This document shows, in pieces, positions 18,625 to 29,411 of a stretch of DNA of 64,000 nucleotides. Source of the DNA: Thioalkalivibrio sp. ALJT (GTDB lineage Bacteria; Pseudomonadota; Gammaproteobacteria; Ectothiorhodospirales; Ectothiorhodospiraceae); NCBI RefSeq assembly GCF_000381825.1, contig NZ_KB907123.1, positions 210,021 through 274,020 on the forward strand, given 5' to 3'. The stretch's first letter is position 1, and every line of letters starts with the position of its first letter. A program made the translations under genes and the position numbers. Under the pieces are notes generated by a model. The model saw nothing but the letters and a program-made list of their open reading frames with translations, did not search any database and had not been told where the DNA came from.

Positions 18625-18697
18625 TCGGCAACCCTCCACCACCGTGGCAGGGTGCGGTTGAACGTAGCGAAACGCACCACACCCCATTGGCGTCTCC

Positions 18698-19576
18698 CTA
18701 GCGGCTGATCAGCGTCCCCACGCCCTCGTCGGTCAAGAGCTCCAGCAGCACTGCGTGCTGTACGCGGCCATCGACGATGTGGGTGGCGTTCACGCCGCTG
18801 CGCACGGCATCCAGCGCGCAGCGGATCTTCGGGATCATCCCGCCGTGGATGGTGCCGTCGCGGATCATCTCGTCCACCCGCGGGGCCGCGAGTTTCGGCA
18901 GGAGTTCGCCGTTTCCATCCAGCACGCCCGGGGTGTTGGTCAGCAGGAAGAGCTTTTCCGCATCCAGAACCACAGCGAGTTTTTCGGCGGCGGTGTCGGC
19001 ATTGATGTTGTACGCCTTGCCTTCGCGGTCAAATCCGATCGGCGCGATCACCGGGATGAAGTCGCTTTCGTCCAGGGTGTGCACGATGGTGGGGTCGACC
19101 CCTTCGACCTCGCCTACATGCCCCAGATCCACGGCGGGTTCACCTTCGGCGGTCCCGTGGTTGCGCAGGGCGCTGGCGCGGATCATCTGCCCGTCCTTGC
19201 CGGTCAGGCCGACGGCACGCCCCCCGAAGCGGTTGATCAGCGAGACGATCTCCTGATTCACGATCCCGCCAAGGACCATCTGGACAACATCCATGGTTTC
19301 GCGGTCGGTCACCCGCAGGCCGTTGACGAACTCGGTTTGCTTGCCGAGGCGCTGGAGCAGTTCGCCAATCTGCGGGCCGCCACCGTGCACGACCACGGGG
19401 TTCACACCGACCTGCTTGAGCAGGACGATATCGCGCGCGAACGAGGCCTTCAGGTGGTCCTCGGTCATGGCGTTGCCGCCGTACTTGATCACGATGGTCT
19501 TGCCCGCGAAGCGCTGGATGTAGGGCAGCGCCTCGATCAGGACATGGGCAACGGAATGGGCCGTCTGGGTATCCAT
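18698..19576 (-). CDS. argB: Acetylglutamate kinase ArgB
   Basis: Second step of arginine biosynthesis: ATP-dependent phosphorylation of N-acetylglutamate. 292 residues from ATG 19576; the frame continues to a TTG at 19603 but the ATG is preferred. Motifs: [11 protein letters not shown] (phosphate-binding Lys and Gly-rich loop), [33 protein letters not shown] and [16 protein letters not shown] with the conserved Lys. Cytosolic. The stop codon TAG is read from CTA at 18698-18700, exactly where the repeat-end motif GCGTCTCC finishes. No other arg gene is adjacent. Confidence 0.95.
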
Positions 19577-19763
19577 GCTGGGTCCGGTTGTCGATTCTTG
19601 CAACGGCGCAGTTTAGCACTGTGCCCGCGAGTCGCGGAGGCGGCGGCTTCAAGATGCGCATGGTTGGGACGGTCGCCGGAGAGGGGCGGACGGTGATGTC
19701 GTGGTCGATCTGAAGCACCGGGGCTTGATGTCGTTCAGGCGCAGGCCCGTGGGGCCTCCGGGT

Positions 19764-20225
19764 TCAGCCCCGGCCCGAGGACCCGAAGCCGCCGCTGCCG
19801 CGATCGGTTTCCGCGAAGTCCGCGACCACGCGGAATTGCGGCCGGATGACCGGGACGATGACCAGTTGCGCCAGGCGTTCGCCGACCTCCAGGGTGTAGG
19901 GGTTCGCGCCGCGGTTCCAGCAGGAGACCATCAGCGGGCCCTGGTAGTCGGCGTCGATCAGCCCGACCAGATTGCCGAGTACCAGCCCGTGTTTGTGGCC
20001 GAGCCCGGAGCGCGGCAGGATCATCCCGGCGTAGCCCGGGTTGTCGATGTGGATCGCAAGCCCGGTCGGGATCAGTTCGGCGGCGCCCGGCTCCAGCGTC
20101 AGCGGTGCCTCGATCATCGCGCGCAGGTCGACGCCGGCCGAGCCGTCGGTGGCCGGGGCGGGCAGAGGGAAGTCCGCTCCCATGCGCGGGTCCAGGATCT
20201 TCAGGTCAATCTCGGGGACGGGCAT
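19764..20225 (-). CDS. dut: Deoxyuridine 5'-triphosphate nucleotidohydrolase Dut
   Basis: Trimeric dUTPase making dUMP and keeping uracil out of DNA. 153 residues from ATG 20225, preceded by ggaag; the longer open frame upstream is inside coaBC and not used. The five family motifs are all present: GSAGVDLRA (1), PRSGLG (2), GLIDADYQG (3), [10 protein letters not shown] (4), [10 protein letters not shown] (5). It follows coaBC by 23 bp on the same strand, the conserved dfp-dut order of gammaproteobacteria. The 187-bp gap downstream to argB holds nothing recognised. Confidence 0.96.
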
Positions 20226-20248
20226 CCGGTCTTCCTTTCCAGTCTCAA

Positions 20249-27578: not shown

Positions 27579-28153
27579 CCGCCCGCCCTGCCGCCACGGC
27601 CCTCGTGCAGCGGGACTGGTACCCGCCCGCACGGCGGGTCGAGAGCCCGAATCAGGACGCTCGTCCGCCCGGTCAGGAGCCGGAGCTGATTGTGGTCCAC
27701 GCGATCAGCCTGCCGCCGGGCGAGTTCGGAGGCCCCTACATCAGCGAACTGTTCCGCAACCGCCTCGACCCTGCGGCCCATCCGTATTTTGCGGAGATCG
27801 CCGCACTGCGGGTCTCGGCCCATGTGCTGATCGACCGCGAGGGTCGTCTGGTCCAGTACGTGCCGTTTTCACGCCGGGCCTGGCATGCCGGGGTATCGCA
27901 CTGGGACGGGCGGGAACGTTGCAACGACTTCTCCATCGGCATTGAACTGGAAGGCACGGATGACCACCCGTTCACCCCGGTGCAGTACACGGCGCTGGCG
28001 GGTTTGATTCGCTGGTTACGATCGTATTTCCCGGGGATTGGACCGCAGGCCCTGGCCGGGCACAGCGACATCGCCCCGGGGCGCAAGACGGACCCGGGCC
28101 CGTACTTTGACTGGCAAACGCTGGCGGCCCGCCTGCGGGAGGCCGAGGCATGA
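27575..28153 (+). CDS. ampD: 1,6-anhydro-N-acetylmuramyl-L-alanine amidase AmpD
   Basis: 192 residues from GTG 27575, which overlaps the preceding stop and has a strong ggaggagg site; the longer open frame is a shadow. Amidase_2 family zinc enzyme that removes the stem peptide from anhydro-muropeptides during cell-wall recycling in the cytosol. Zinc ligands are expected at H42 (IVVHAISLP), in the GHSDIAPGRKTDPG loop (His and Asp), with the conserved WHAGVSHWDGRERCNDFSIG and IELEG segments between them. The spacing fits AmpD rather than the longer AmiD lipoproteins. No ampE or ampC is present nearby. Confidence 0.92.
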   Translation: MTARPAATALVQRDWYPPARRVESPNQDARPPGQEPELIVVHAISLPPGEFGGPYISELFRNRLDPAAHPYFAEIAALRVSAHVLIDREGRLVQYVPFSRRAWHAGVSHWDGRERCNDFSIGIELEGTDDHPFTPVQYTALAGLIRWLRSYFPGIGPQALAGHSDIAPGRKTDPGPYFDWQTLAARLREAEA

Positions 28154-28734
28154 TTGTGGATCTCCTGCGACACGGCGAACCGGAGGGCGGGCAGCGTTAC
28201 CGTGGCCATGGCTGCGACGATCCGCTGAGTGCGCGCGGATGGGGCCAGATGGAGCGAGCGGTTCGTGGCGAGCCCGGATGGCAGTTCGTGGTCAGCTCGC
28301 CACTGCAGCGCTGCCGGGCCTTCGCCGAGCACTACGCCTCTACACAGGACCTGCCGCTGATTGTGGAGCCAGGCTTGCGCGAGATCGGCTTCGGCGACTG
28401 GGAGGGGCGTACCCGGGTTGAGCTGCAGCGGGACCGTCCGGAGGAATACCGCGCCTTTTACGCCGATCCGGTGCACGCGCGCCCGGCCGGGGCGGAGCCG
28501 CTGGCGGCCTTTCGCCGCCGGGTCGAGGCCGGTTTCGATACGGCCTTGCGGCCATTGCAGTCGGAACGGGTGCTGATGGTGGTGCACGCGGGGGTTATAC
28601 GGGCGCTGGTCGGCTGGGTGCTGGGCATGCCGGACGACCGCCTCTACCAGCTCGAGTGCGACTACGCCAGTCGTACCCGCCTGCAGCGGCATCCGACCCG
28701 CGGCTGGCGGCTGCTTTACGCCAGCCGGGTCTGA
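28150..28734 (+). CDS. Histidine phosphatase family protein (phosphoglycerate mutase-like)
   Basis: 194 residues. The RHG catalytic motif is at the N-terminus (LLRHGEPEGG, phospho-acceptor H8). The second half of the site is the acid in REIGFGDWEGRTR and the second histidine in MVVHAGVIRALVG. Size and sequence suit the alpha-ribazole phosphatase (CobC)/SixA-like group. No cobalamin genes are adjacent, so a specific substrate is not assigned. It overlaps ampD by 4 bp. Its 3' end is followed after 15 bp by a 346-bp inverted-repeat element. Confidence 0.85.
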   Translation: MIVDLLRHGEPEGGQRYRGHGCDDPLSARGWGQMERAVRGEPGWQFVVSSPLQRCRAFAEHYASTQDLPLIVEPGLREIGFGDWEGRTRVELQRDRPEEYRAFYADPVHARPAGAEPLAAFRRRVEAGFDTALRPLQSERVLMVVHAGVIRALVGWVLGMPDDRLYQLECDYASRTRLQRHPTRGWRLLYASRV

Positions 28735-28749
28735 GCCGGTCCAGCCCCC

Positions 28750-29095
28750 AGGGAGACGCTGATCTAATCGCACGTGCGCGCTCGAGTCGCTTTTGCGTGC
28801 GTTTAATGCGCGGTGACGGCCGCGTAGTCATTCGGCTACAGGTGAACCGCAACACTTTGCGCACACCCGTTTTTGATCAGCAACGGGCGGCCGAGCCCCT
28901 GCTTTCACTGGCTCGTGGGGTTGGTGCCCCCCGATTCTGAATGAATATGGCCCGATCCTGCGTTGCGCCCCGAATCCATCGAGAACGGGCGGGTAGAACC
29001 ACTACCCGCTGCACGCCGCGTTTGGTCTCGGAACGCTTGTCTCCAAAAACTGGGGGAGCACCCACGCGGACGTGCGATTCAATCAGCGTCTCCCT
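28750..29095. mobile_element. MITE-like element, 345-bp family, copy 1
   Basis: 346 bp bounded by terminal inverted repeats: AGGGAGACGCTGAT at the left, its complement ATCAGCGTCTCCCT at the right, with pairing continuing inward for about 30 bp with three mismatches. It aligns end to end with copy 2 at 61754-62104. Inner palindromes include gggcgggtagaaccactacccgct. No open frame of note and no transposase. It fills the convergent gap between the histidine phosphatase and the DUF2322-like gene, and its right end touches the stop codon of the latter. Likely a non-autonomous element mobilised by an enzyme elsewhere. Confidence 0.85.
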
Positions 29096-29411
29096 AGCCG
29101 GCCTGCGTGTCGCGCCGGGGGACGGCCTTCACCGACAGGTAGTAGTCGTTGTTCAGCACCTCGAACAGGCGATCGATATTGGGGTGCTTGCCGGGGTTGG
29201 CGCGGGCGTCATCGGCATGGCTGCCGTACATCAGCAGCCCCGAGTTGGCGGCCTTCGGTCCGATGCCGCCGTAGTCCAGGGCCAGCTGGTAATAGATCTG
29301 CAGCGACAGGGTCTGGCCGTCCCGGTTCTCGATGGTGGCCGTGGGGTTGTAGTCCTCGCCAAACAGTTCCAGGCGTTCGATATTGCTGACGTCGGGCAGC
29401 TTCTTGGACAT
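29094..29411 (-). CDS. Small conserved protein, DUF2322-like
   Basis: 105 residues from ATG 29411, which has a gaggag site at good spacing. No signal peptide, membrane segment or catalytic motif is visible. The text NIERLELFGEDYNPTATIEN and HPNIDRLFEVLNNDYYLSV resembles, from memory, the DUF2322 family of short proteobacterial proteins of unknown function; treat that as tentative. The stop codon (TAG, read from CTA at 29094-29096) shares its first bases with the end of the adjacent repeat element. It is divergent from the IMPase-family gene. Confidence 0.65.
   Translation of the reverse strand: MSKKLPDVSNIERLELFGEDYNPTATIENRDGQTLSLQIYYQLALDYGGIGPKAANSGLLMYGSHADDARANPGKHPNIDRLFEVLNNDYYLSVKAVPRRDTQAG

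Follow-up and report, generated by a model that had tools for sequence, protein, structure and literature searches.

Repeats that abut stop codons in Thioalkalivibrio sp. ALJT are very probably IS5-type miniature elements that duplicate the target YTAR

Introduction

The insertion sequence (IS) IS5 of Escherichia coli duplicates Py-T-A-Pu at its target, CTAG being the commonest form (available text of PMC5493358). MITEPsy1 of Pseudomonas syringae, a miniature inverted-repeat transposable element (MITE), duplicates CTAG or YTAA and probably derives from ISPsy2 of the IS5 family (available text of PMC3189936). IS5 and one IS5-type MITE are already known to target YTAR, and ends of repetitive extragenic palindromes (REPs) that give genes a TAG stop are likewise known. 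Here we describe a family of repeats in Thioalkalivibrio sp. ALJT, starting from a 64-kb stretch (the window) of its 2.66-Mb genome, which has 66% GC. An earlier reading of the letters alone (the sequence-only reading) had noticed that repeat ends in the window coincide with stop codons, and had suggested insertion targeted to gene 3' ends or a role in transcription termination. We conclude with high confidence that the repeats belong to the non-autonomous IS5-type elements (MITEs), insert into YTAR (CTAG, TTAA, CTAA or TTAG) and duplicate it. This target motif accounts for most of the stop-codon pattern.

The elements resemble IS5 of E. coli and its group in the 4-bp YTAR duplication and in the IS5-family DDE transposase of a matching IS (PMC5493358 and PMC10359306, in the text available of each). 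Unlike E. coli IS5, the copies described here are non-coding, and no source for them was found in their own genome. The terminal repeats of E. coli IS5 also differ from theirs. With MITEPsy1 the elements share a short, non-coding form, duplication of CTAG or YTAA and derivation from the IS5 family; MITEPsy1, however, is 100 bp long with six copies in the table for that strain, compared with lengths of up to ~345 bp and at least 41 matches of at least 114 bp here, and its printed terminal repeat is unlike the present one (PMC3189936, same text). Like the GTAG REPs of PMC3733652, the elements have ends that give neighbouring genes TAG stops, but those REPs are palindromes of 20–40 bp with GTAG at one end, for which the available text describes no 4-bp YTAR duplication. 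No report of the present element was met in the literature found on stop codons at MITEs and IS5, on YTAR targets of IS5 and on Thioalkalivibrio repeats, or among the four papers, with human, mouse or fly in their titles, that matched the letters of its end.

Results

Stop codons at the four sites of the window

As the sequence-only reading had stated, the terminal motif GCGTCTCC(C/T)TA is present at 18690-18700, 29086-29096 and 62092-62102. Read on the opposite strand, the three bases that close each copy are a stop codon, namely the TAG of argB, the TAG of a DUF2322-like gene and the TAA of an amidotransferase-like gene. The last of these genes had NCBIfam matches to glutamine-amidotransferase-type families, every one of them under the cut-off. 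It was also confirmed that the TAA stop of a potassium/proton antiporter gene is directly followed by AGAGACGCTGATTG. What had been missed is that the convergent rep helicase gene has its TAG stop in the CTAA on the far side of the same 49-bp insert. The coordinates are collected in Table 1.

Table 1. Elements and flanking motifs in the window
Feature	Position	Strand	Description
342-bp MITE	28752..29093	no strand	Ends GGAGACGCTGATC and GGAGACGCTGATT; left flank CCAG 28748-28751, right flank CTAG 29094-29097
341-bp MITE	61759..62099	no strand	Exact ends GGAGACGCTGATT; TTAA either side (61755-61758, 62100-62103)
49-bp mini element	25008..25056	no strand	CTAA either side (25004-25007, 25057-25060); one-hairpin fold, z -2.4
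argB-adjacent insert	18583..18697	no strand	Right end GGAGACGC, 8 bases matching the repeat; left end uncertain, 18583 being a guess; interior not MITE
Target duplication CTAG	29094..29097	-	Holds TAG stop 29094-29096 of the DUF2322-like gene
Target duplication TTAA	62100..62103	-	Holds TAA stop 62100-62102 of the amidotransferase-like gene
CTAA	25004..25007	+	Holds TAA stop 25005-25007 of the potassium/proton antiporter gene
CTAA (minus-strand TTAG)	25057..25060	-	Holds TAG stop 25057-25059 of the convergent rep-like helicase gene
CTAG	18698..18701	-	Holds TAG stop 18698-18700 of argB

The argB site is unlike the others, the repeat end there being 8 bases only and the remainder of the insert not being the 341-bp element. 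The CCAG on the left of the 342-bp MITE is a decayed CTAG.

Anatomy and distribution of the elements

Apart from the 49-bp mini form, the copies are non-coding and mostly 280–345 bp long. Inverted ends GGAGACGCTGAT(T/C) were found on both long copies of the window; in the 341-bp copy the terminal inverted repeats comprise exact 13-bp ends and long paired arms. No open reading frame of at least 100 aa lies wholly within either copy, so that neither has a transposase gene of its own.

The genome contains 37 copies of the motif GCGTCTCCYTA and a single copy of the backward control. The 341-bp MITE gave 117 match pieces in its own genome, and among these were at least 41 rows of at least 114 bp at 40 places (40 of 112 candidates were scored). 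Among the matches listed, 16 of 30 genomes of the genus, its own included, were represented. A 24-base piece of the element end matched 54 stretches in the named genome collection, which possibly does not include the own genome; all were from Thioalkalivibrio.

Flanks of the copies

Flanks were examined in stretches of the own genome, which were centred on copies and are not a random genome sample, and in 80 stretches of relatives. The latter were hand-picked, the most similar first, from some of the listed matches that aligned over the whole query or nearly so. Of 125 candidate ends in the own genome, 88 were kept by eye; the 37 dropped were mostly 28-base matches without the repeat start. 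Gene positions were taken from a purpose-written gene finder based on codon usage, not from a standard annotator.

In the relatives, identical 4-bp flanks were observed for 57 of the 80 two-ended copies, and 56 of these pairs were YTAR. For the own genome the corresponding figure was 12 of 31 (10 YTAR, 2 CTTG). Among the 88 kept ends, 46 had YTAR; 16 of these coincided with a predicted stop, and no predicted gene had one in its interior. Outside elements YTAR is scarce: the own stretches (~407 kb) contain 258 sites, 102 of them coding, 114 intergenic, 40 at a stop and 2 at an edge. On both strands the last three bases of YTAR are TAA or TAG. A TAA or TAG stop preceded by C or T is itself a YTAR, and is therefore a target, while the 4-bp duplication leaves the stop intact. 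The suggestion of insertion targeted to gene 3' ends was right in that insertion is targeted; the target, however, is the 4-bp YTAR, of which TAA or TAG after a pyrimidine is an instance.

A second family of elements, with ends like GGAAACACTGATTAATGTACACGCTCGC, was seen at L082:6114-6409, L046:7527, L047:3820, L062:5066 and L077:11674 in addition to L316 in relative G011. Some of its copies are flanked by YTAR, and one lies directly at the stop of a laccase-like gene of G011. A few of the ends dropped above (e.g., L062:5066) possibly belong to this family.

Empty sites and protein C-termini in relatives

The DUF2322 locus is empty in the sister genome G009, which reads CCAGCCC-CTAG-CCGG where the window has CCAG-element-CTAG. 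Both 300-bp flanks align up to the CTAG (94 and 96%), and the C-terminus of the protein, DTQAG, is identical in the two genomes. The CTAG at argB is occupied by a full MITE in G009 (L348) and by the other insert in the window, and is empty in G010 (L262); either this stop was struck twice or a single insertion was rebuilt. ArgB ends in TLISR or TLITR in every one of the 28 sequences listed (own and 27 relatives), irrespective of whether an element follows the gene. At the stop of the laccase-like gene the MITE family is present in the own genome and in G009, and the other family in G011.

The C-termini of ArgB and the DUF2322-like protein are thus unchanged; no clean empty site was found in the relatives compared for the amidotransferase-like gene or the antiporter/rep pair. 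The closest amidotransferase-like relative (G009) has different last codons and a TGA stop. Around the antiporter both length and sequence vary among relatives; none of the 27 listed has an element directly after the antiporter stop, L234 having GCGTCTCC about 10 bases further on. The rep protein ends in AMLES in the window, and the letters of G010 give AMLEK.

A convergent gene pair in which each stop is a CTAG on its element side, as at the antiporter/rep site, was also seen at L365 (G005) and L399 (G014). The gene ends are nearly alike in the two genomes, and this is probably the same pair. One CTAG probably served there as stop on both strands before insertion.

A matching IS in relatives

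In the relatives an IS of 1200 bp was found, flanked on both sides by TTAA (L095), CTAG (L097, L108) or GTAG (L114). Its ends are GGAAACGCTGATCAATG and (G/A)GA(G/A)AC(G/A)CTGATTTA; in these four copies and in L094 they match the MITE end at 11–13 of the first 13 bases. The encoded protein scored 319 bits (L108) and 317 bits (L095) on NF033581, the IS5 family transposase, for which the cut-off is 140, and it also matched PF01609 and PF05598. A PDB search with the transposase gave no matches.

Stop-codon frequency against the motif background

When the distance from copies to stops was tabulated, the positions were clearly non-random, and the random placement that the sequence-only reading had named as counting against it was not seen; a random 4-mer falls in phase with a stop at 0.08% of positions. 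Gene ends in TAA or TAG lay at distance 0 from an element in 43 of 86 cases (own 10/19, relatives 33/67). For TGA ends the count was 0 of 53 (own 0/17, relatives 0/36), which is partly a consequence of the motif itself. TGA is the main stop, accounting for 249 of the 373 stops predicted in the stretches of the own genome. Copies without a stop were in codirectional, convergent and divergent gaps (own 14, 4 and 3; relatives 22, 16 and 11, respectively).

Among the 80 two-ended copies of the relatives, 75 were YTAR-flanked, and a stop was present in the duplication in 31 of these 75. With all YTAR outside genes as the background, 24.2 (p 0.059) or 23.6 (p 0.041) were expected. With divergent (promoter) gaps excluded, the expectation was 33.9 (p 0.79). 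In an earlier sample from relatives the stops numbered 15 of 39 where 11.2 were expected (p 0.12), or 22 of 59 where 17.2 were expected (p 0.11) when one-ended copies were added. That sample was collected mainly through an exact match to 24 bases of the element end and is weighted toward young copies; it shares copies with the later sample and is not independent of it.

The element also supplies stops after insertion in or near reading frames. At L325, L363, L388 and L395 of the relatives, predicted genes in another frame end at a TGA 11 bases into the element.

Decay of CTAG and the QGDAD tails

Among the own ends, 15 had CCAG and 15 had CTAG; stops were found at 9 of the 15 CTAG and, necessarily, at none of the CCAG. 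The mirror form CTGG was absent from all 88 ends. T-to-C changes relative to intact motifs numbered 15 to 15 for CTAG and 4 to 31 for TTAA, CTAA and TTAG together (p 0.0009); in these counts each changed flank was assigned by eye to its likeliest original, and CCGG, CTCG, CTAT and other changed flanks were left out. In the relatives CCAG was seen at 5 and CTGG at 1 of 160 ends. In six own copies a CTAG faces a changed flank across the element. Four of these have their stop in the CTAG (the window copy at 28752, L044, L052 and L081) and L082 has it on the changed side (ATAG); L079 is without a stop.

Four own copies have CCAG toward the element at both ends (L050:3871-4211, L075:3955-4295, L051:3873-4212 and L056:5846-6186). 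Yet two of the four share 95–96% identity with other copies, so that a one-way decay of CTAGG to CCAGG is apparently fast in the own genome.

Five genes of the own genome read across a changed flank into the element. The added tail is QGDAD in a laccase-like gene (L050), one uncharacterised gene (L055), a LysR regulator (L058) and TilS (L080), and QGDAN in DnaG (L078). The flank change seems to have cost these five genes their stop, and we infer that each earlier had a TAG or TAA there. For L050 this is supported by G009, which has the insertion in the same position but retains the CTAG and lacks the tail. The element end may act as a ready-made C-terminal cap: every gene with an insertion at its TAG or TAA stop would run into the element in one and the same frame, and a CTAG-to-CCAG change would add the same five residues, QGDAD, up to the element's TGA. 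Such changes, frequent and one-way in this genome, would repeatedly write QGDAD onto unrelated proteins; we consider the chances of this to be even. In the relatives, CCAG with a QGDAD tail was present in 1 of 80 copies (L381), and a GDAD ending with a shifted flank in one (L342). The literature named in the Introduction, in which the tail itself was not searched for, gave no report of QGDAD tails. On the other side of L055 (618-3980; flank CCGG), a predicted gene runs about 90 bases into the element in another frame, with a longer tail.

The change of CTAGG to CCAGG looks like over-repair by Vsr. The repair specificity of Vsr is CTAGG, and both the T-to-C direction and the context, CTAG beside the G of the element, fit. 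However, Vsr (PF03852) was not found in the own genome, being present in 6 of 30 genomes of the genus, and the own stretches show no shortage of CTAGG (50 occurrences, elements included, where 41 were expected).

Discussion

We propose that an IS5-family transposase would recognize the MITE ends and insert the element into YTAR through a 4-bp staggered cut, which would duplicate YTAR on both sides. The IS5-family transposase of the relatives is the probable agent. YTAR is rare at 66% GC, and TAA or TAG stops account for a fair share of its occurrences outside genes and promoters. Insertion at a stop should do no harm, since after the duplication the gene still has an intact stop beside it. Selection would remove most insertions in genes and promoter gaps, so that survivors would be seen at intergenic YTAR sites and exactly at stops; we infer that the other insertions were lost in this way.

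Several results weigh against this account. With all intergenic YTAR as the background the excess of stops in the relatives is borderline, and the exclusion of divergent gaps, which removes it, was chosen after the data were seen. In the own genome stops were found in 10 of 18 two-ended YTAR copies where 5.0 were expected (p 0.009), and in 17 of 36 where 9.1 were expected when one-ended copies were included (p 0.003). The decay of CTAG at places other than stops inflates this excess, which may nevertheless be true in part. The distance-0 ends of the relatives are all TAG (33/46), with TAA at 0 of 21, yet TAA gave 4 of 12 in the own genome. Copies are also found 1–30 bp past TGA ends (own 5/17, relatives 16/36; raw counts, without a background). 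YTAR is on neither side in 13 of the 31 own two-ended copies. Finally, no IS of the matching kind turned up in the own genome, whose sole PF01609 match is a contig-end fragment without these ends nearby.

One other explanation is that the elements recognize gene 3' ends as such, through transcript ends, terminators or termination complexes, and that YTAR is secondary. The 41% of YTAR-flanked copies of the relatives that are at a stop, the own-genome excess and the copies shortly past TGA ends would all suit it. On the other hand, TGA, although the main stop, is never at distance 0, copies without a stop are also in codirectional and divergent gaps, and the excess in relatives is gone against YTAR outside divergent gaps. 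Recognition of gene ends is therefore very unlikely in our view, although the excess of stops in the own genome and the copies close to TGA ends slightly lowered our confidence that insertion into YTAR explains the pattern. Somewhat less improbable, but still unlikely, is that the elements are retained at gene ends as transcription terminators or as protectors of mRNA 3' ends. The full element forms one very stable hairpin (z -10.2), and the mini form at the convergent pair folds and has a short T run (z -2.4). Such strong folds are due to the inverted repeats. The T run of the mini form is a TTTTCT tail only, and no intrinsic terminator (GC-rich hairpin plus T run) was matched in the three regions scanned (24950-25150, 28650-29200 and 61650-62200; the argB region lay outside the scans). 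Despite the folds, the terminator role suggested by the sequence-only reading was thus not borne out in three of the four regions. The position of the elements is explained without terminators, the DUF2322 insertion is missing in G009 and G010, and none of the listed relatives keeps an element directly after the antiporter stop.

That the repeats are palindromes of the REP or bacterial interspersed mosaic element (BIME) type, belonging to the GTAG superfamily linked to REP-associated tyrosine transposases (RAYTs), is hardly credible. It is true that GTAG REP ends often give a TAG stop and that GTAG REPs are described in two Thioalkalivibrio strains (available text of PMC3733652). But the present elements are mostly 280–345 bp long with inverted ends, their 4-bp duplication is usually CTAG or TTAA, and the motif is present once at the empty site. 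Compared with a GTAG-tagged palindrome of 20–40 bp linked to RAYT, the elements differed in length, inverted ends and YTAR duplication, and this candidate was rejected.

Insertion of an IS5-type MITE into YTAR provides a simple reason for repeats that abut stops: for a transposase whose target contains TA, the stop codons of a GC-rich genome are a notable supply of sites. The host need not be affected by such an insertion, as its gene retains a stop through the duplication, and a stereotyped tail can arise when the flank later decays. For annotators this is a warning that stops supplied by repeats need not imply terminators or targeting of gene ends.

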